Shown: positions 2,587 to 36,501 of the stretch, piece after piece
How positions within the stretch are numbered: the first letter of the stretch is position 1
Layout of the letters: the number at the start of each line of letters is the position of its first letter
Assembly (NCBI GenBank): GCA_000310025.1
Contig: FN647684.1
Location: 482,319 to 523,229, forward strand
DNA: 40,911 bases
Source: Ectocarpus siliculosus
Taxonomy: Eukaryota > Sar > Phaeophyceae > Ectocarpales > Ectocarpaceae
Direction of reading: 5' to 3'
The notes under the pieces: model-generated
What the model was told of the DNA's origin: nothing
The model's database searches: none
Seen by the model: only the letters and a program-made list of their open reading frames with translations
Made by a program: the position numbers and the translations under genes

Positions 2587-5005
2587 ACCGCCGGCTGCTG
2601 AAGTTGCCATCGCCACGCCAGCGGGGGCTGGTCTGGTGGGGGTGTCCGTGCGTTTTCTTGCTGTGTGATATCATCATAGGAAGGTCTACAGACCTGTTAC
2701 TCATTCTTCTTGTAGTTCTTTAGTCTGTTATTGTGATAACAACTCGACGAGTATCGTCGCGTTGCCTGTCTGAAGCTTTCCAGTTTTTTAGCGGTTATTA
2801 AAGTCGAGGGCGAACACCGCGACACGCTCGCCCACCGAGCACGACAAAGAGTTCGGTACACAGAGTAGAGTAGATTACATAAGATATCACACCCCCTGAG
2901 CAATTTTTTAATTTTCAAGCTCGATTACTCCACAGCAGAAAGCGTGGCCGGGCGGCGTTGGCACCGATAGCTTTCCGAAACAAACGTACGTACGTATCGT
3001 TTGACATCCTCGTCGTTGTGGACTAACATTATTAGCTGTGAATATCGATGATGCGATATTTTATGTCACCTACTGCCGGTACATGCCATGCATAAGAACA
3101 AGGAGCACCCTCCATACTCCAGTAAGTTATGGTCGTGTAGTTGAATTGAAACCTCTCATTATACCCATCCATGAAGAATTTGTTTTATACACTAATACTC
3201 TTCATAGTATAGGTGCTGCAAAAAATATCCATGGACGAACCCAGCAGTTCCGTTGTTGTTGTCTTCACAATTAATTACAAAACCGTTCGTTCTGTTCTCT
3301 CTACCCAGTACCTTCTTCGTTTGTCCGTACTACTAGGTATGATAGTCTGACACTTGACGCGGTCGATTCCCGCCGCCGTGGGCTAACTTACCCAAAACAG
3401 TTATACGAAAATAAAACTGATCCGAAGAAGGGTCCGCAAGTCAACGACAGATTAGTCGAGGACCCTCCGGTCGCTTCAATACGCTTGCGAGGTAGTAACC
3501 ATAGACGGGACAATACACCAAAAAAAAACACAAAATAATATTAGAGGCGACCTCACGCGCACCCGAAAAAACCGCCAGTCAGTGTTCGATCGACACTTAC
3601 TTCTCTACACCCATCCATGCGCATGCACTTTTTTGTGGCGAGGAACTCCATGCTTTCAAGAATGCCGCTAATCATCTCGTTGATCTGTTTTCTTTCGTTT
3701 ACATACATGTAGTACGCACGTCACACCCGAATGAAAAGGAGACCACACCAGAACGCGCTCTCCGCACGCTGGGAAAGAATCCGGGACTATATGAATGAAT
3801 GCGGACCCCAGAAGATGCGCTTTTCACAGCAGGTTCCTCTCCGAAACGAAAGAACCGGACGGGAGAGAGGGAAAAAAGAAAAAAGCAGAGGCGTAGTACG
3901 CGTTCCCCGTCATGGACATTTCATAAGAAGAGTCGTATTGTGGTAGTGGCAGGAACCTCTCTCTGCGATCAGGTCAGAAGGCCACCAGTCTTCTGTTGCA
4001 CCCACCCATGGACGCAGCAGTAGTAGCGCATGTCATGTAAGTAGACAACTACGCTGAAAATATTGGAGACCATGAATCATACCGACAGGTAGGTCGTAAT
4101 AGGTGGGCGGGGGACCCTAAAAAACAGTCGGACTCAGCCAGTTTATATTTATTTTATTTACATCCTTACAGCAGTTGTCGGCTGTACAAGAAGGAGAGGG
4201 AAGTGTACATGACTGAGCTGGGAAAAATACAAGGGACGTACAGGTAGATGTTTGAGGCATGGAACAGAGAGGAGAGGACGGCAGCTGTACTGGGGAGTAG
4301 GAAGAGGTTTGAAAAGGCGGGAAGGGATATCGTTAGGATATAGACAACCTAGGGAAGACATTTTGAGCCACCTTTGGCAAAGTAGGAAGGAACGATTGGC
4401 CATCGGTGATCGGTCCTGTGGGAACAATGCTCCGTCCTCTCGAGGACGCGTGGTCAATGGTCTAACCGCTAAGGTATGCAAAACATAAGAGTACGCCCCC
4501 TTACAGCAGTTTCTTGCAAGCAAGAACGAAGGGCGGGGATACTTTCTTTCTTTATTTTTCTGGTGTGAAGTGGCAACAAAGAAGAACACGACTATCTTGT
4601 TGTGTAAATCCCTTAAGGTGACACACGACATCTCTCGCCTGAACCAGCCCTCCTCGACAACGGAAAGAAACATTATCACCCCATGGCGTTAACTCCACGC
4701 CTTGGTAACAACAAACGAATAACGCCTGCCAGGTTAGTGACAACCCCAACGTGCTTGCTGCTCCGTTCAGTCTCCGTCTGTTGGTGGATTTCGCGCGGCG
4801 GAGGGTCTAACGCATCCACAACATGGACACACAAAGAAAAAACATGGCACCTCACAACCGGAAGGGTTATTTATCCTGACCCCCTCACCCTCCTTCACCT
4901 CCCCGAAAATCGTACACAACGAGTCCATCACTGAGTCAAGACCTTTTCAGCCAAACACGAAAGAAAGCTACTGTATCCCGAAACCTGGAGAAAAAAAAAA
5001 ATGCT
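2587..5005. other. Convergent intergenic region
   Basis: This lies between the stop of the unknown (+) gene and the stop of ZPR1 (-). About 2690-3560 is noticeably more AT-rich and probably holds 3' UTR. From 4165 to 4511 there is a full retroposon-like copy with its target-site duplication, listed separately. No ORF here has protein-like composition or splice-supported neighbours, and I see no RNA gene. Confidence 0.5.
4177..4499 (-). mobile_element. SINE-like retroposon, copy 1
   Basis: This is 323 bp, read on the minus strand. It begins GGGGCGTACTCTTATGTTTT and ends near CTTCTTGTACAGCCGAC. It is bounded by an identical 12-bp direct repeat CTTACAGCAGTT at 4165-4176 and 4500-4511, as expected for a target-site duplication. 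By eye it is about 90% identical over its whole length to 10561-10897 on the other strand. Near the 5' end it carries CCTTAGCGGTTAGACC, which resembles a shortened tRNA A box. No B box and no poly(A) tail are evident. It has no long ORF, so it would be non-autonomous. It sits downstream of the ZPR1 stop. Confidence 0.7.
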
Positions 5006-8000: not shown

Positions 8001-11000
8001 GCTGATTAAATTTGAAAACAAACGCAAGAGCACCAGAAAACACACAAGAGACACACAAGCCCAGTCGGAAGGCATCGCGAAAAACAGAAATCGTTGATTC
8101 TCGAACAGGGCGGCCGTAGAGGCTGCTCAAAACATACATTTCACGCGTCTACTTCCACACGCCTCCTTTGAAATCAAGATAAAATTTCACCCTATTATAA
8201 ATTCAAGTCAAAAAGCGCCAATACGGCAGGCGCTCAAATAAAGTCGGTGTTGCCAGAAACCTGGTGCATAGTACTATCGTAACTATCGCCAACCACTTGG
8301 CATATGAGAACTTTCTTTGTTGGATGTACTCACAGCATTGGCAGATTACGGCAAGCAGAGAACCTTCCCAGAAGATGGAGCGCGGAGAGTTTGGGGGTTC
8401 AGGCAGTTTCTTGTAAGGTTCGGAAATCCAGTTCAAAAATGTGCAACTTCCCATTCGAAAAAAAGGAACAACGTGTCGGTCAAGACGCTTCTTATAGTGC
8501 AGTCATTTTTCTTTTCACTGCTGGCTAGGAATGCGGCCGTTGGTATTTTTCCATTTGCTACCCCCGTACCACCTCATCATCCGGTCGGTTTGGTTTATCG
8601 GGGATCTCTGTGCACTGGGTGACACAACAGCAATAGCAAAGTCATCCGACGGTAGCTGTGCGTATGGTGCCTCAAGGTTGCTACAGACCGTGAGGCGCTG
8701 GGTGGTTGAGAATTGAAGTTGGCGAGAGGGGCAACTGCTGTTCGAGAAAGACCCCCCGCTCGAACGAACATCTTTTGACAGATTTTTGCTCCATCACAGC
8801 TTTGGTTTCGTAGCGACCCCTCTTCACTGGCCGAACCAACAGAAACCACAAGGCCATCCGCCCGTAGCTGTGTGTATGGTGCTTCTTGTGTGATGTGGTT
8901 TCCAGAGACCGTGACGCGCTGGGAGGCTGAGCAACGAAGTTGGCAAGGATCGACTGACTTCTGTGTTGTTCGAAAAATGACATCATCACCATGCCGCTCA
9001 CTGCTGTACAGGTTTCTTGCCGTGTCACCGGTGGCGCTGTAGCTATCCCTCTCCATTGACCGAACCAACAGCAATGACACAGCCCCTCGGACAGAGAGCA
9101 GTTGATGGAGCTCACATCCTGGCACATTTCAGCAGGAGGGGTGATCTAGCGAGCGAGAAAATGAACATATCGTCCATCGATGTGTGTGTAGGGATGATGC
9201 TGCGTTTCTTTGAGGGTCTGGGCAAGCGGTAGGTGTGTCAGCTGGCCAACATTTTGCTTTGAGCGCGCCTGGCCACACAGGACCCACATATAAACGGCTG
9301 GGATGACAGCACAGTGCTCCGAGGGTTGCTCGGAGCCCTTGGTGAGCTGGCTACGACCAGTACTTGTTGCGCAATCGATGGTTTTGCTCCCGTGTGGTGC
9401 GCATTTCCAAACGCAAAAAACAAACGCGCTATCCGATCGAAAATTGTTATCACTTCCAAACGCATGACCGGTTGGAAACGTCAAATCGAAAATGTGCAGC
9501 CGGACAAGTGCCATTCTGATCTTATAATATAAGAAACAGTTTTTTGTCCGGAATCGGAAATGCACATTTTTGAACTGGATTTCCGAACCTTTTGAGAAAC
9601 CGCCCCATCAGATGATATGTATTGGGCTTGGCGGTACCAACTTTACCGCATATTATGGAATTCTGGGTGTAGGGCGTGTGTGCCTACAAGGAGTTTGTTT
9701 TGGTGCTTTGTGGACCCACTTGTCGCCCTTGTTCTGTCGTCTCTTTCCAATCACGGCTTCCGGCCATCACGATAGGGCTACCACGCCCGTGTCCTTACTA
9801 TCCAGCGGCTATTACGCTCAGGGCTATCACGCCCGTGTCCATGCTACCTGTCCAACGGCTATCACATTGCCAGGCGATCACGACTCTAGGCTATCACGCC
9901 ATCACAAAGCTATCACACCACCAGCGTCAACACATCAGAGCTATCACGCTCCGGAACATCACAGATGCTGGTTACCACTCCCGCGGGCAGTTTTCTGTAT
10001 TTTATCGTTGCCGGCAAACTCGCCGCGAGGTTCTTTTATTTTTGCCGTCTACAACTGCGCCGGGCGCACCAAGCCATCCAACAGCATTTTGCAGGGGGGA
10101 TTTCGACGACGAAGCAGCCTTGCTTCGCCCAACGGCTTTTCATACCAATAGGATTCGGAGACGGTTTACCTTCGAGCTGGCTCGTTTCTGTCCGTACGAA
10201 CTCGTCACGTTTTCAAACGTCTTTCATGGACTACTGATTGATCCATTTCCACCACGCACGGCCAATAGGTTGGGGTCTCAGTAGTAGTAGCGCAGACAAA
10301 CACAATGATGATGGCAATCAGGGGGATTCGTTTGGCAGCTGTTGGTGCATCTCCCTTCTTGAAAATGGCAGAGCGGTACTATTGTACATAGTACGTACAT
10401 ACATACGGAACTTTACAGCACTGTCTCACCTCTCCAGGAAAATCCGGAACTTGCGCTGCACGTCGCTCTCCTTCCCGTGGTGTGCCGTGGCCGAATCACC
10501 GCTGAAAAAAGGGTTTCCCTCCACGAGGCTTGTGCGTGCCTGGTTCGGGGGGGGGGAGGGGGCGTACTCTTATGTTTTGCATGCCTTAGCGGTTAGACCA
10601 TTGACCACGCGTCCTCGAGAGGACGGACATTGTTCCCACAGCACCGATCACCGATGGCCAATCGTTCCTTCCTACTTTGCCAAAGGTGGCTCAAAAATGT
10701 CTTCCCAAGTCTGTCTATCCTAACGATATCCCTTCCCGCCTTTTCAAACCTCTTGCTACTCCCCAGTACAGCTACCGTCCTTTCCTCTCTATTCCATGCC
10801 TCAAACATCTACCTGTAACTCCCTTGTATTTTTCCCAGCTCAATCATGTACACTTCCCTCTCCTTCTTGTACAACTGACATTGCGCGACTATTTACATGG
10901 TTCGGGGGGGGGGGAGGGTCGAATCGTCCAGGGTTACACAGAAAATCTGTGCAATCTTTCTCTACGACTACCGGTCAGATTGATGTCCCTCAAATGCAAT

Positions 11001-14000
11001 TACACGTGAGGGCTACATAGTGTAGGGCTAGGGTCTACAGCAGTCTCGCTGTCCACACAACCAGCCATCGCCAACACCGTCACTACCACCACGTGGAAAC
11101 ACCAATCAACACGCCGTTCTGTCCCTTGTTGTTAGATACGAGCCCGGGGAGGGGGCAGCGGTGGACGGGAGGCGTACAGTACCTCCCAAAACTGTTCAAT
11201 GTATGCATAGGAAAGTTTTCTTCTTAGCAAATGGTGGGAATGTACTCCCTCTCGGTATGTTTTTTTAGGTGTACTGCTGTACCCCCTTTAGGGTAGGTTT
11301 GCCTCAACATCTTCTGTCGTCACACCTACGGTGGTCTGCGGTGATACACGCTGGTTTCGTGGTCTGCGGCGCGACAAGCAGACAGCAGTTACAGAGACAT
11401 GGTGGTCTGCGGTTGCCATTTTGGCAGTCCGCAGGAGCGTCACCACTGAACAAAGAGGGGTACGCCTTGAACATTATGGGGTATATGTTTGAGAACAGCG
11501 GGGAACTAGACAAACTTTTAGCAGAGAGGGGTGCACCCCGCGGTTTCGTGAACAAAATGGGGTCCTCGAACAAGCTCCCCTCTTACAGGTCCTAGTTAAC
11601 TCTGTTCCTGTGGGTGAAACAAAAAAAAGGTTGGGCGGCCTTCCTAAGGACCTGCCGCATGGCGCTAGAAGGCGGTTTAAAGGCGCCTACCCGGCGTCAG
11701 GCGTTGCGCCCCACACCGAAAAAAAGTAGAAGAATACCCTATTTTGTGCCTAAACACGTGGGGTATACCCCATTTTCTCAATTCCCTTCAAGGTTTAGTT
11801 TGTGACTAGTACCCTTTGGGCGGTTTAGGTACCATGTATCTCATAACCGAAATCGTGTTAATTTCCCTGTGGGAAAAGCACCCAGGCAACACCTCGGCAA
11901 AAGGCAAAAACAAGCAGCAGCAGCAGCAGCAGCATTGATTCAAGTGGTGATTCGTCGGTAGCTACGCTGAGAGTCGCTTTTTCCACCAATCAGGGCACTT
12001 TCTCAGCACTTCGATAAGAGGCTATTCTTGACGAATACAAGGAAAGATAGCATTGTATGCGTAGATACGCTACACACCGGACGCTAAACAGTGACTCAAC
12101 AACACGACAGGACCATCACCTCCTATGCGACGGACCGTTCCCTGAACCGTTCCCTGAACCGTTCCCTGAACCGTTCCCTACGGCAGTAGTGGTCCCTGTG
12201 CAAGTGAGAAGGGATTTGGCCTACCTTACATCCAGCACCCCAGAGCAAGAGACAGGTGGAATACTCCCTATCTGTGTCACGCGATTTCACCGGCCTTACA
12301 CAGGGCGATCCGGTCCATGTTCATGCGGCCTCGTGCAGGAATCAGACACTGCCTTAGATGCGCGCACAGGGGAGACAACCATCTCGTGTTTCTGTCTCAT
12401 TTTTTTTGCCTTGAGTTCTCCTCGAACGGAAACAAAAAAGTTCCATAGCCAGCCGTGTGTCCGTCTCAACCGTTTGTTGTTATCTCTTCCGGAACGGAAA
12501 AAAAAAACCCGACCTTCTCAACACCCAGCTGGCCTCGACCGCGCGACAATACCTTCTCGAGGAGACCCTCCACCGTCGTGTACATGCTGCCGAGCGTGCC
12601 CATCTCCATGACGAGCTCGAGCTGGGGGATCTCGAGCACGGCGGTGTCCGACTTGAGCACGTCTCTCCTGAAGTCGTCCTTCGAGACGGCCTCCAGGGTG
12701 TACGCCGTGCCCTTCGGCGGGATCGCTCCCCCACCCTTGACCTTAAAAAAAAAAAGGCAAAAATAAGTTTTTTGCACGCCCGGGCCGGTCAACACATACG
12801 ACAACGACGCCTCCTCCAAAAAAACGCTAAATAGTAAAAAATAAATAAACAACGGTTGGGGAACAAAAGCCGGACCTGCCGGCAAGTAACCCGGAATTAA
12901 GCTTGGCGAACCCCCGCGCAGCAAGTCATCACGCCCAACCATGGGTACGCTTGAAAGAGAACCTGCCGCCTCTCGCGGGTACGGGGTGGTTTGCATCCTA
13001 TGGGGCAGGCGACCGGACTCAAGCAGAGCACACTTGGCGAGATGCAAGCAAAAAAAAAAAGGCGAGGATCTGTAGCGGAAGGGTCACATACCACTGGTAC
13101 ACGCTAAAACAGCTGCTGATATCGGTCTCTCGAGGTAACAGAAGTGTGGAGCGGGTTGAGCGCCCTGGCGAGGGCGCGAGTGAGACACCGGGAGCCGGGC
13201 GGCTCGGTCACATGGTCGCTGAGACCAAGACTCGCTAGACGTTATGGCAGATTTTCTTCGAGCTGGCCAAACGCAAGGAGTGACGACTGGTGAGAGAGCG
13301 GTGCGTGATGGCTGATGAGAATCTACCAGTGTACACGTACGTACATGCGTGCTCGTTCACGAGGACACACCTCGAGTCGGCCGGCCGCATAAAACGTTTC
13401 GAGCGCATCGTAACGGTTTTAAGAGTCGATCGCCACACACACACTCCAAGTATACCCGCACTAGACGTTTTGGTTTCCCTGTTGCGAGACTGGCGTGCTT
13501 TCATTGGTCGAACGCAACAAAAAAGTGCTCCAGTTGTGTACCTTTTCACTGCTGCACAGCAGGACGGAAGTTTGCAAAAGAGATCAACTCGACATGTACA
13601 AGAAGAAAAGGTGCCATTAAGTTGCAAATGTCGATATGGTGCTTGGCCGATAAAAAACAAACAGCAACGACGTCTGGCCGAAAAACAACACACAACAGCA
13701 ACAGCAGTAACAGCAACAGCAATAATAACAGCCGTCTCCACGACAAAAAACACCCCATCACCTCCGAGCTCTTGAAGCCGCACGACTCGCAGTTGAAGGC
13801 CATGATCACGACCTCCTTGAAATGCGGAATTTCGGCGAGGCACGTCAACGAGTGCCCCGGAGCTCCGCAGGCCGGGCAGCAATCGGGCAACCGCACCGCC
13901 TCCCTACGCATGAAACTCCCCCCCTCCTCCTCCTCCCCCGCCTTGCCGTCGCCTTGACTTGCGCCAACGCCCTAGGAGGAATTGTTCAAGCAGTGAGGGG

Positions 14001-29100: not shown

Positions 29101-32099
29101 CAGAAGAAGTGTTTGCACGCGAGCGCGTACGCCTCTTTGGCGGTGAACTCTTCGCAGCAGATCCGGCACTCGAGCTTCTCGCCGTCCTTGAGGGAACCGG
29201 TCTTGTGCCCGCCGGCGGCGATGCCGACCTTCTCCATCACCGACTCCGGCGACGTGTAGTACTGCAAGACGCGGGACGCGTGGCGTGCGGGGAAATAGAG
29301 AGGCATGAGGTGCGTGCAAATAAGCCGGGCGGCGTGGTCGATGCCAACCATAGGAGAACCACAGCACGGCTTAAGACGGTGGGTGTGATTCTACGAGAGC
29401 GAGAAAAGGACGCGCATCGACAGAGGAGCGGTGGCACAGCCGGGTCAGGCCCAGTTGGTGCTAGAAAAAACAAGGGAGACGATTTCAACAAAATATTAGA
29501 CACATCGCGACCCCTGAACGCGCCGTCGCCGATATTCGGACGCCGAAGAGTAGTGAGGAGGAGAGACGAACACCAAGCATGTTTGCGACAAAGCTTGGCT
29601 GTATCCCTGCGCGGCAACGCCTGCCAGTTTGTAACGAGAGTGGATTATACAGACAAAAAGCTCGCCCAGGGTTGTCTCCAAAACAGCAGTGCTGTCGTGT
29701 TGGATATTGTCTCCCCGCTAAAAACCTAGTCTGACGTTCATCGAATACCTCCTGTTCCCCACGACTGAACACGAAGAACAAATACCTTGGCTGCCAAGAG
29801 GCCATCCACAAAGAAGGCAAAACCCAAAATCAAAGCAGCGTTAAGACCTGGACAATCGTCAAGAACGCTTTTTCACAAGACACAAACGGAAAACAGCCAG
29901 TGGTAACGCTGCGTGTACTATGATACACACGTACTTGGTCGAACAAGCGCTCGCGATTCCAGGAAAAATGTCGAAGCAATGCCGTCGCAGCTTCCGCAGA
30001 AATGTTCACAGTCTCGCTGTTACCGGTCGTACCGACGCACACATGCAAAAAAGTGCGAGGGGGGCGGGGGGCGGGGGGGGGGGGGGCGGTGAAGGTCAGG
30101 GGTTACAAACCACACGAGGCAGAACGACACGAGTCAATGGAGGGGACGAGGAGGGGGTGTATACTCTCATGCTTTGCATGCCTTAGCCGCTGGACTCTGT
30201 ACCACGAGGGAAGGGGGAAGGGGGAAGGGGCTTTTTACGTGCGGTGAGCTTGGTTTGCCTTGCCCTCTCGCGTCTGCGCCCAAGGTGCATACAGGGTACT
30301 ACTGTAACACGGGGTACTAGTTAACCTTACCCTAAGCAAGCACAATATGCAATACTGCTGTACAGGGTTAAGCTTTTCGGAGAGGACACCCAGCAATGCC
30401 TTGAAGCAGCGCACGCCTTCTCTCCAGCCCGCGTGTTTCGAAATTGGCCAGGCATTATTTGGTAGCACTCGCTTTTGCTTACCCGAAAACGTTCAATCGT
30501 TTGCCCCCCATCCGTGCCCTTGAAACAGGAAATGTGGGCTGCTTTGCCCCTAGCAGCAACAACCTGGCTGAAAGTAACCCAAATCACAAACGACTCCCAG
30601 CGGCTGCCTTTGAAACAATGTAAACAGCCACCGCGATATTATCTGCTCTGCAACACACGTCCCCATGCCTTGTGTTGATTTTCCGGCATGGGTGGAAACC
30701 TCAACCTTCTCAAATGTTTTCGTCACGCGCGTTAGACTTATCGTTGCGGCTGATCGCCCGCCCCGCGTCATCATGGCGGTGTCACCTTGGTCTTGACCGC
30801 AAGAACCGCTCGCGAGGAAGGGCCTCAAGGTAAGGGGTAGGGGGGGGGGGGTATGCATGTAGCACACAACACGGGCCTCCCTCCGGAGAGGAGGCGCGAA
30901 ACCGCCGGGTTTGCTTCCACACTGCACACGAAAAATCGTCGCTGCTTCGAATGCCCGGCACCAGTGGCAGCAGCAACCAGCAGTGGAGCGGCAATCCAAC
31001 ATCGGTTCCACTCACAAAGCCTACGCTGTGCGATGGACTAAGTGGTCTGTGAAAGGGCAAGCACCCGCTCTTGGATAGGGCGGCCGCCAGCAGCTTTTGA
31101 CTTGAGTTTGCCGGCGATGTCTGTCGGTCAAGACTTGCGGGAAGTCGATGCACTACTGCTGCGACGCTGGCGTAGGGGGGAGGTTTTCCCGCTTCGAGGT
31201 GTAACAAAACGCGCTTTCGGTATGCCGCTTTTTAATATTCTTGGGCGACCGACGTGCCCGACGCATGGAACGAGCAATAGAACTGTTGTGTTTGAAGGAG
31301 GCCGGAAAACAAAAGGGGACGCTGGGGTAACATAGCCGTGTGGTGGTTTTCCAACATGGATAAAAACTCTTTCGCTGCTGCTGTTGTGTACCGATGCCTC
31401 TCTCCATCGGTGGCTGAGAACTCCACCGACTTCAAGCCTGCAACCACGAGAGGGGTTCCGGTGCTGCACCGTGCGTAGGGTCATCTGCGGCGGGAGCGGC
31501 AGGGGCCAACAAGCGGGGAAGGGCTCCCGGCCTTGACGTTCATCCGCAGCTATAATAGCTGTTGGACGACCGCTGCCCCGCTGTGGTTATGTCGCGGCTT
31601 GCTTCAACCAACACCCCAACGCCCGCGCTACGGCCAGTTTCGTCTCCACTGCAACAGCCGCCCAACGCAAATATGTGTTTTTTAGCACCAAGCCAAAGTC
31701 GCGATAATAATATTAACATACCGCGTCCCGCTGGGACGCGACAAAAATCAAACACCGAGAGAGCCGGCCCTGCATGAAGCAGCAGTTAAGTGTACGACAC
31801 AGAGTTACCTACCTGATGTCAGAGACGACCTTGGACATGAGCACCTTGAGCTGCGCCTGGTCGATGAAGGCCACCGCGGTGTCGTCCCTGAGGGCTAGGT
31901 CCACCTCCGCCTCGGCGGCGGACGAGCCCCCCCCGCCCCGGGCGCCCTTCCCTGACCCCCCCGCCGCGCCGCCGCCGCCTCCGCTCGCGCTGCTGCCGCC
32001 TCCGGAGTCTCCACCGCCGGCCGCCATGTCATCGTCATCGATGTCATCGTCCTCGTACTCGTAGTCATACTCGTTGTCGCTCCCCTGGTCGTCCTCCAT
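26144..32099 (-). CDS. ARI: Ariadne-type RBR E3 ubiquitin ligase
   Basis: Seven exons (minus order): 31813-32099, 29935-30016, 29067-29261, 28021-28458, 27456-27616, 26715-26879, 26144-26372. They join in frame to 1557 nt, 518 aa. Ariadne layout: acidic Asp/Glu/Tyr N-terminus, a Gly/Ser linker, and a UBA-like segment AEAATALLRHFSWNRERLFDQ-like (about 103-123). RING1 starts at CRIC155-158 and includes ACKHFFCRGCW. The IBR contains CPGKDC (244-249), RCNC and FCFRC (272-275). RING2 is CPKC (312-315), NQGC325NHMSC330RQC, FCWIC338-341. Cys325 aligns with the catalytic cysteine that accepts ubiquitin from E2 in RBR ligases. A helical Ariadne domain follows (WIDVQFLKTAMEQLIECRRV, TYVMSYYIEE). Family proteins are about 500-560 aa, so it appears complete. 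Known partners are UBE2L3-like E2s and, for ARIH1, neddylated cullin-RING ligases. Intron 3 carries hairpin repeats and a tRNA-like B box. Confidence 0.95.
28794..28925. repeat. 80-bp tandem pair built on GCGGGTGCCCGC
   Basis: GCGGGTGCCCGCT followed by a GGGCGGG block occurs at 28794 and again at 28874, a period of 80 bp. A third, reduced form (CGCATACCCGCC) lies near 28912. The 12-mer is self-complementary at its ends and could form hairpins. It lies in Ariadne intron 3. Confidence 0.6.
30147..30205 (+). mobile_element. Diverged 5' fragment of the SINE-like family
   Basis: TACTCTCATGCTTTGCATGC followed by CTTAGCCGCTGGACTCTGTA matches the first 40 or so bases of the two full copies (TACTCTTATGTTTTGCATGC, then CTTAGCGGTTAGACCATTGA). 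Similarity ends soon after. It sits in Ariadne intron 1, just downstream of a long G run (about 30055-30087), antisense to the gene. Confidence 0.45.
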
Positions 32100-34460: not shown

Positions 34461-36501
34461 ATGGTTCGCGGGGACGGGCGCATAACCTACACCAGGCGCC
34501 ATGCCTACCACACCAAGTCCAACAAGGCCAAGGCCGTGAAGACGCCCGGGGGCAAGCTTGTGGCCCACTACCTCAAGAAGTCCGCCAAGGGCGTCCACTG
34601 TGCCGACGCCAGCTGCAGCGTCGCTCTCCCGGGGGTGAGTTGTTTTCGGCGGTCACGCTGCCTCGGGTTGACACTGCCGCGTGTTTTGTCGGTGTGTCAG
34701 TGGCATCCGTGCCGGTGGAAGGTGTACATATTCATTGCAGCATTCGAGACGGAGAACAGGAAACCAGAGGCGGCTAGCTTTCGCGAGGATAAGGGTCTCA
34801 TCAACGGGACGCTGTAGTGGCAGAAAAATGGGCTGCTGTTGCGGACGTTGATTTTGTTATTGGCCACCACTGGCGAGGAGTTGCGGTGCAGTTCACCACC
34901 GTTTTAGAAACGTCAACAGGGAACACGTTTCGTGGAAGTTTTCGTGTACGGGGAAGACGGTTTCCGAGTCCCGGATGTACTACAAGCGAGAGCTGAACGG
35001 CTGCGTTTGGGTGTGTCGGGGGGACAGGCAACCTTCTGCCCCGTCATATTCTCCGAAATGGCGTTGTTCTTGACGCTCCTGCAATGCGATGCGAGGATGC
35101 AACGCCCTTGTTGTTGCTGCGAGTTTTTTTTTTGCGCATGTGCTCCCATTGTGCGGCCGTGAACGAAATCTGCTCTGTTAGCGGCTCAAACAAGTACCCT
35201 TTGTTGTCGGCACATGGATACCCCATCCTCCCATCTGGCTCGGAAAAGTTGTGGCTGTGGGTCCTCTGCGTCTCCCCTCCCCGTCTTTGACCTAACGCCT
35301 CAATTCGTTGCGTCGGTGTGTAGTAGTACCAACCCCGCACAGCTGTGTCGTTGCGAATTGTCGCGCAGGCGAGCAAGGGCGTCTCGGGCGGTGCAGGTTG
35401 ATGCTGGGATGTCATGTCCTCTGACAACCCCCATGGTCTTGCCTCCCTGCTTGCTCTTCCTCTGACCCTTGTGTTTCTCGCCCTCTGCTCGCCGCAGATA
35501 AAGCACATGCGCCCTAAGGAGTACAAGAACCTTAAGAAGCGCCAAAAGACCGTGTCTCGCGCGTACGGAGGGTCGCTTTGCGCGCCCTGCGTGCGGCAGC
35601 GGTGAGTGACGAAGCTTCTTTGTTGGAAGCAAAACCACTCTGTGTGTTGTGTATGTTTGTGTCTTTGTTACGTCCACGGCGCTAACCGGCTTACCAATGT
35701 GGAGAATCAGTTTTAAGTTTGTGTATGTCGATACAAGAAGGGTTTCGGTGCCGAAGTGGCGATCGTGAGACGCGTGTGGGCCTTGGTTCTCTGCAAATGG
35801 TTGGGGGCGTATAAGATGGTGCGTTTATTTTTTCTTGTCTGCGGCTGATGACAGCATTCCAGTAGCAGGGTACGCAGTTCCGATGTGTTTACCTACCCAA
35901 GGGTCACGCGGCAGTTCTCTCATTGTTGTATGAGTGGTACGGTTGCGACGGAGCAGTGTTCATCGCCGAACGCTGTGGTTCAACGCTGTTGTTCTAGGAA
36001 GATAAGTCCGTTCAAAGGTTTCCGCTGCTGTAGAACGTGCAACTTTCTCGTGGAAGAAGTGCCCACCTTGTTACTTCTTGACTCACAACATTGTCCCCAA
36101 CTCCTGTGTCCGTGTTTGAGCGAAGGTTGTGTACGGGGCAAGCAAGTGCCCACCTTGTTACTTCTTGACTCACAACATTGTCCCCAACTCCTGTGTCCGT
36201 GTTTGAGCGAAGGTTGTGTACGGGGCAAGCCATCAGCTCTCGGTGATTTTGTTTTCTCTTAATTTACTGACGAGAGGAGCGTGCTTGTTACATTTTCTGT
36301 GATTGCTTGTCCACCGACCGACGTTTGGCGTCTACTACCTCACAACCTCTGGCCTTTGCGCTGCTGTTTGCTGCCCTGTTTCGTGTGGTGCTCTGGTGCA
36401 ATTGTTTTCCTCTCGTCAGGGTCGTGCGCGCTTTCTTGATCGAGGAGCAAAAGATCGTGAAGAAGGTGCTTCTTGAGAAGCAGAAGAAGAAGAAGGCCTA
36501 G
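34461..36501 (+). CDS. RPL34: 60S ribosomal protein eL34
   Basis: Three exons (34461-34634, 35498-35601, 36420-36501) join in frame to 360 nt, 119 aa. Introns are GT-AG: 863 bp (phase 0) and 818 bp (phase 2). The sequence follows the eukaryotic eL34 family end to end: ITYTRRHAYHTKSNKAKAVK, then TPGGKLVAHYLKK, MRPKEYKNL, KTVSRAYGGSLCAPCVRQR, RAFLIEEQKIVKKVL and a Lys-rich C-terminus. Length matches the usual 115-120 aa. It is a structural protein of the large cytosolic subunit that binds 28S rRNA. The zinc knuckle's second pair is C86-x2-C89. The first pair is C47-x4-C52 instead of the usual C-x2-C. Intron 2 carries a perfect 87-bp duplication. The ATG sits in a purine context (AAG before ATG). 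Confidence 0.97.
36057..36230. repeat. Perfect 87-bp tandem duplication in eL34 intron 2
   Basis: Bases 36057-36143 are repeated without a mismatch at 36144-36230. The unit begins AAGTGCCCACC and ends GGTTGTGTACGGGGCAAGC, with one extra CA at the end of the first copy's junction form. The lack of divergence suggests a recent duplication or an assembly artefact. Confidence 0.9.

Follow-up and report, generated by a model that had tools for sequence, protein, structure and literature searches.

A 5ʹ-truncated LINE at the C-rich tract of a probable ZPR1 3ʹ splice site in Ectocarpus siliculosus

The closest known event to the one described here is the merle SINE of canine PMEL, where a retroposon flanked by a 15-bp target duplication sits at the border of an intron and an exon. 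As outlined in PMC7349775, this SINE lies in reverse orientation and brings a poly(T) stretch together with a cryptic acceptor, and splicing varies with the length of its tail. Two further groups of elements bear on how such a site comes to be chosen. For L1, nicked target DNA primes reverse transcription, with T-tract targets used within the poly(A) tail, according to the account in PMC3649969. Non-LTR retrotransposons with simple-sequence targets, as treated in PMC4640811, include the (TG)n-specific Togen and some microsatellite-specific HERO families. Among the titles and abstracts listed for the open literature, no LINE that targets C homopolymers and no targeting of pyrimidine tracts by a LINE was found.

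The DNA considered here, termed the window, is the whole analyzed stretch of 40,911 nucleotides from E. siliculosus (contig FN647684.1, positions 482,319 to 523,229). It is highly probable that a LINE inserted here at the C-tract of a ZPR1 acceptor, that a 20/21-bp duplication resulted, and that splicing survived with either a LINE-borne or the old branch site.

The ZPR1 acceptor and its insert

The gene lies on the reverse strand, and the features are as follows; negative numbers count upstream from the exon.

12553..12741, reverse strand: ZPR1 exon upstream of the insertion (exon 7 in an earlier sequence-only reading), ending ...GLLEK, then GTATTG, phase 0
10540-12552, reverse strand: intron carrying the insert, between the exons at 12553..12741 and 10430..10539
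10898..10918, reverse strand: distal target-site duplicate CCCTC11GAACCA, then T, without acceptor AG (direct reading)
10561..10897, reverse strand: 3ʹ end of a 5ʹ-truncated LINE (copy 2), from own-genome matches and long copies with RVT_1
10592..10596, reverse strand: CTAAC in the LINE, candidate branch site by prediction, branch A at 10593 (-54)
10567..10571, reverse strand: LINE-borne AAGAG with AG at -30 and -28; GAG would add YAPSPPPNQ
10541..10560, reverse strand: exon-proximal target-site duplicate, C-rich pyrimidine tract CCCTC10GAACCA (direct reading)
10540..10542, reverse strand: probable acceptor CAG, CA within the exon-side duplicate and G just beyond; use predicted from the protein join
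10430..10539, reverse strand: ZPR1 exon downstream of the insertion (exon 8 in the same reading), ending ...FLER, then donor GTGAG
4177..4498, forward strand: copy 1, same LINE family, 5ʹ-truncated, with duplicates CCTTACAGCAGTT at 4164-4176 and 4499-4511

Four separate exons match the Pfam ZPR1 models (zinc ribbon 1e-19 and 9.3e-17; jelly-roll 4.5e-14 and 1.4e-7), and the exon at 12553..12741, which gives the jr-ZPR1 match of 4.5e-14, also matches mouse ZPR1 at 2.4e-23. The exon at 10430..10539 alone had no match in the Pfam search. Because the phase-0 join of 12553 to 10539 aligns across the junction to mouse ZPR1 (2QKD; E 1.4e-12) with a one-residue gap, 10540 is very probably the ZPR1 acceptor; the gene-strand junction reads CAG (10542-10540) followed by GCACGC. 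An own-genome search for the ZPR1 zinc ribbon returned two matches, both inside the window, and ZPR1 is apparently a single-copy gene. The intron flank is present once in the genome, where no second or empty allele of the insertion site was found.

Direct reading of the window places a 337-bp insert between TGGTTC-G10-AGGG (10541-10560) and TGGTTC-G11-AGGG (10898-10918), the same repeats that had been assigned to copy 2 from the sequence alone. On the gene strand, the exon-side duplicate reads CCCTCCCCCCCCCCGAACCA and is followed by the G that completes CAG, whereas the distal duplicate reads ...GAACCATGT with no AG at its end and is followed by T, so the earlier observation that only the exon-proximal duplicate carries the full acceptor stands. 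The proposal of a retroposed copy with a target duplication at the ZPR1 3ʹ splice site also holds: the local alignment score of the duplicate pair is 36, and this score with at least five non-C bases is reached by 3 of 50 testable copies, the ZPR1 copy included, versus 1 of 2450 mispaired flank pairs, which places it beyond chance. The distance from element to exon, previously put at about 22 bp, measures 21 intronic bases. LINE homology extends to about 10891 and is followed by junction filler of ~6 bp (10892-10897). The insertion split the ZPR1 intron just upstream of the pyrimidine tract, and when the flanks are joined to rebuild the empty site, a single tract and the CAG remain.

A LINE family and its preference for C-tracts

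An own-genome search with the insert, in which the best 40 of 2336 candidates were scored, listed at least 41 matches including the query copy, 40 of them at 94-100% identity over nearly the full query. The 189-Mb genome contains 282 occurrences of an exact 23-mer from the LINE 3ʹ end, versus 0 of its reversed control. Long copies with the same 3ʹ end run upstream into open frames with reverse transcriptase, with RVT_1 at 1.9e-34 in copy L092 (profile positions 3-205 of 205) and 3.4e-16 in L002. Upstream of the reverse transcriptase in L092 lie Exo_endo_phos (1e-4; 22.6 bits, Pfam cut-off 24.5) and Exo_endo_phos_2 (1.6e-4; 22.0 bits, Pfam cut-off 27.4), both below cut-off. Since longer copies with the same end continue into reverse transcriptase frames, the insert can be identified as the 3ʹ end of a 5ʹ-truncated LINE, or non-LTR retrotransposon, in the sense orientation of ZPR1. 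The earlier term retroposon is thus right as to retroposition and is narrowed to a gene-sense LINE 3ʹ stub.

Of the 87 copies that were read, 50 have their 5ʹ end in the available sequence; 30 extend beyond it, and N interrupts the other 7. These 50 testable copies end about 43 to 1776 bp from a constant 3ʹ end, a constancy that is partly due to the sampling of copies by that motif. Reverse transcriptase, 5ʹ truncation and target-site duplications, all features of APE-type non-LTR elements, are found in the family. Copy 2 differs from the family majority by 4.5% over 331 bases, versus a median of 2.4% for 58 long copies, which places it outside the youngest of the long copies compared.

Several other repeats lie in the window. 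At 4150-4176, the 5ʹ duplicate of copy 1, CCTTACAGCAGTT, comes after a T-rich stretch, an arrangement that also resembles a 3ʹ splice site; downstream, no evident coding exon was seen by eye. At 30150-30206, 57 bp with 75% identity to the LINE 3ʹ end adjoin a G-rich run, a likely stub left by a sibling family of LINEs. About 250 bp are repeated at 1516-1762, within a 250-aa open frame, and at 10083-10339, downstream of the ZPR1 exon, with pieces at 79-92% identity, and a perfect 87-bp tandem duplication occupies 36057-36230.

Target preference was read from the LINE-sense 3ʹ flanks of the 87 copies. These comprise the two in the window, 25 of 29 other loci from the insert search (four were left out because the exact end motif is absent) and 60 of 100 listed places of the 23-mer, drawn from the first 71 of that listing with 7 duplicates and 4 places without an extracted locus omitted. 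Two flanks were dropped for N. A C-run of at least 6 within the first 20 flank bases is present in 69 of 85 copies versus 799 of 81,782 window 20-mers (about 1%), and when the first 3 flank bases are skipped it is still present in 54 of 85. The sampled LINE 3ʹ end (GAGTACGCC, the last Cs being ambiguous) joins the 5ʹ edge of the C-tract. Informative target duplicates were found in 14 of 50 testable copies versus 47 of 974 mispaired controls, and in 13 of these 14 the C-tract lies in both duplicates, at the duplicate start. By the strict rules, the other 36 testable copies yielded no duplicate that is informative; for several of them the reason is that the string common to both sides consists almost entirely of C. 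The copies therefore share a target type as a preference, not as an absolute rule: a C-run of 6 is absent from 16 of 85 flanks, and the target of copy 1 was CCTTACAG.

Two other origins for the insert and its tract have to be weighed against this evidence. That the insert is a tRNA-derived SINE or another independent short retroposon would fit its shortness and a candidate A-box-like string near one of its ends. A tRNA-derived SINE is nevertheless ruled out, since ARAGORN reports 0 tRNA genes in the window and long copies with the identical 3ʹ end extend into LINE open frames, and this whole class of origin is hardly credible. The second alternative takes the C-tract for a poly(C) tail belonging to the element, so that the pyrimidine tract arrived with a LINE that had landed immediately before the exon. 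It draws on the C-runs that follow most sampled copies and on L004 and L039, where the run on the 3ʹ side exceeds that on the 5ʹ side by 1-3 bases. In L005 and L067, however, the 3ʹ run is the shorter one; the tract and shared non-C bases also stand on the 5ʹ side in 13 of 14 informative duplicates; and the ZPR1 site itself reads CCCTC10-11GAACCA on both sides. Duplicates that carry the tract on both sides rule out a long poly(C) tail, and a tail origin for the ZPR1 tract is very unlikely. Some copies may carry a tail of one to three Cs, as the C-runs to the left and right of one and the same copy can be unequal by a few bases.

The C-tract is accordingly read as the target and not as a long tail, because each of the paired duplicates contains it in 13 of the 14 informative copies. 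As the family inserts at existing C-tracts, the tract at ZPR1 was there before the insertion as its landing site, and the duplication added a copy of it upstream. The suggestion in the sequence-only reading that the duplication formed the pyrimidine tract is contradicted by the family's flanks and duplicates.

Related LINE-like elements seem to have used one another's C-tracts as landing sites, forming stacks: in the 5ʹ flanks of L024, L033, L039, L055, L070 and L085, the LINE adjoins C-tracts behind related LINE-like ends (e.g., ...CTACGGCATGCACGACTATGAGTACACCCC). In at least 6 copies (L003, L019, L022, L034, L046 and L072), the LINE end is closely followed by another repeat (about GGTGTTTGCCATCGGGGTTGGGTTTTCGTCGCTTGGCAACGACGTTGTAAAACAAGC).

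Splice acceptors and branch sites

C-rich acceptor tracts are available to such an element. In 29 conserved AAA and chaperonin exons, an acceptor was called automatically for 27, and the final 45 bases contain a run of 6 or more Cs in 6 of these 27, versus 86 of 3328 random window anchors (p about 7e-5); the same caller was run at the random anchors because it favors pyrimidine-rich AGs, and some of the 27 calls are doubtful. Among window 45-mers taken every 5 bases, 364 of 16,348 contain such a run. Because C-runs appear enriched at the sampled acceptors, C-rich pyrimidine tracts can be counted among the available LINE targets.

Two further copies appear to be placed like the one in ZPR1. L050 ends 26 bases before a CAG and an open frame that matches a nucleotide-sugar transporter in Pfam (and EamA also), and L088 ends 45 bases before a CAG and an EsV-1-7 frame (Pfam). 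In L029, a NifU exon (Pfam) lies >100 nt from the LINE end. Open frames of at least 45 residues in the flanks gave 8 Pfam families at E <=0.01 in sense (150 longest of 190) and 4 in antisense (150 longest of 205); the frames behind Peptidase_M1_N, DUF1294, VIT_2 and Ribosomal_60s were not found among 17 further sense copies checked. L041 and L061 presumably resemble FAN1 and BIG/ARFGEF; a Pfam search of the two returned no match. An exon candidate at L056 was dropped as LINE-like coding sequence by eye. At L026 (G000:C40:160015-163345), the target duplicate CCCCACCCCCCCAG stands on both sides, and if this is a splice site, each duplicate holds a complete acceptor.

A crude codon-bias exon scorer (1487 training codons, log-odds >=5), which chose the wrong AG even for ZPR1 and did not detect L088, the EsV-1-7 copy, called an acceptor plus exon in 6 of 78 LINE flanks, 3 of 78 antisense flanks and 66 of 2194 random window stretches (LINE versus random, p = 0.03). 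It did so in 14 of 78 C-tracts in loci picked for their AAA/CCT exons and in 2 of 44 other window C-tracts, and by this scorer LINE flanks are not richer in acceptor plus exon than other window C-tracts (p = 0.40). No acceptor enrichment beyond C-tract targeting is seen, because 6 of 78 LINE flanks compare with 2 of 44 window C-tracts.

The likely main consequence at ZPR1, on which the sequence-only reading was silent, concerns the ancestral branch-point region. In the reconstructed empty site this region has CTGAC at -78 and CTCAC at -110; the insertion has moved it 358 bp further from the acceptor. Between -10 and -140, yUnAy is now matched by a single string, the LINE-borne CTAAC at -54. 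Of the 82 copies that reach 60 bp, 67 contain this string; as these copies are close relatives, the count is no proof of selection.

Three AGs that the LINE also adds, at -46, -30 and -28, lie downstream of CTAAC, and for this reason a sole usable acceptor at the exon is only a prediction. Splicing might have switched to a LINE AG (AAG at -30 or GAG at -28), partly giving a ZPR1 with nine extra residues. These AGs lie 24-26 nt downstream of CTAAC, which is a usual branch-to-acceptor distance, and use of the GAG at -28 would preserve the frame and add the nine residues YAPSPPPNQ. AAG and GAG are weak acceptors, however, and both stand upstream of the C-tract, and the protein obtained with the join at CAG aligns to mouse ZPR1 with a gap of one residue. 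A switch of this kind is unlikely, and the CAG beside the exon remains the predicted acceptor.

Proposed mechanism and comparison with known systems

A 5ʹ-truncated LINE inserted in gene sense at the C-rich pyrimidine tract of the ZPR1 3ʹ splice site. G-run primers, which C-tract targets would supply, could pair with the CC(C) end of the LINE RNA, and second-strand cleavage beyond the tract would then duplicate it. The 20/21-bp duplication left a complete tract with CAG beside the exon and an orphan tract upstream. Splicing would have survived since tract and AG stayed together, and either CTAAC at the LINE end (-54) took over as branch site or the old one, now 358 bp further off, continued to serve. 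Insertions at acceptors would come to lie in gene sense, since it is the C strand of the tract that sets which way the LINE points.

The type of event is known, and the landing preference of this LINE can explain how splice sites get hit: a high-copy LINE that prefers C-tracts can reach C-rich acceptors, always in sense, which is the likely cause in the ZPR1 case. If the other acceptor insertions are confirmed, they would serve as natural experiments, with the same element and genome, on the tolerable distance between branch point and acceptor. A bolder extension holds that the landing pad coincides with C-rich acceptor tracts and that, as the element carries its own CTAAC ~33 nt from the junction, sense insertions at acceptors rebuild branch site, tract and AG together. 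We regard this as improbable; if true, sense insertions would be nearly invisible to splicing, the family would lead a self-buffering life inside genes, and intron ends would be steadily rewritten.

Like the Togen and HERO elements of PMC4640811, the ZPR1 LINE family appears to have simple-sequence targets. A C homopolymer is not among the targets named for those elements in the relevant part of that paper, and the preference of the ZPR1 LINE is strong, not strict. The family also resembles L1, as portrayed in PMC3649969, in being a LINE with tract-like targets and, in the proposed mechanism, priming at the RNA 3ʹ end; unlike L1 with its T-tracts, it would use G-run primers against a CC(C) end. 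With the merle insertion, as far as it is detailed in PMC7349775, the ZPR1 case shares an original acceptor that stays beside the exon and an element that parts the acceptor from the branch point, and at ZPR1 the kept acceptor is accompanied by a duplicate upstream. Whereas the merle SINE lies in reverse orientation (PMC7349775), the ZPR1 insert is a sense LINE stub at a C-tract.
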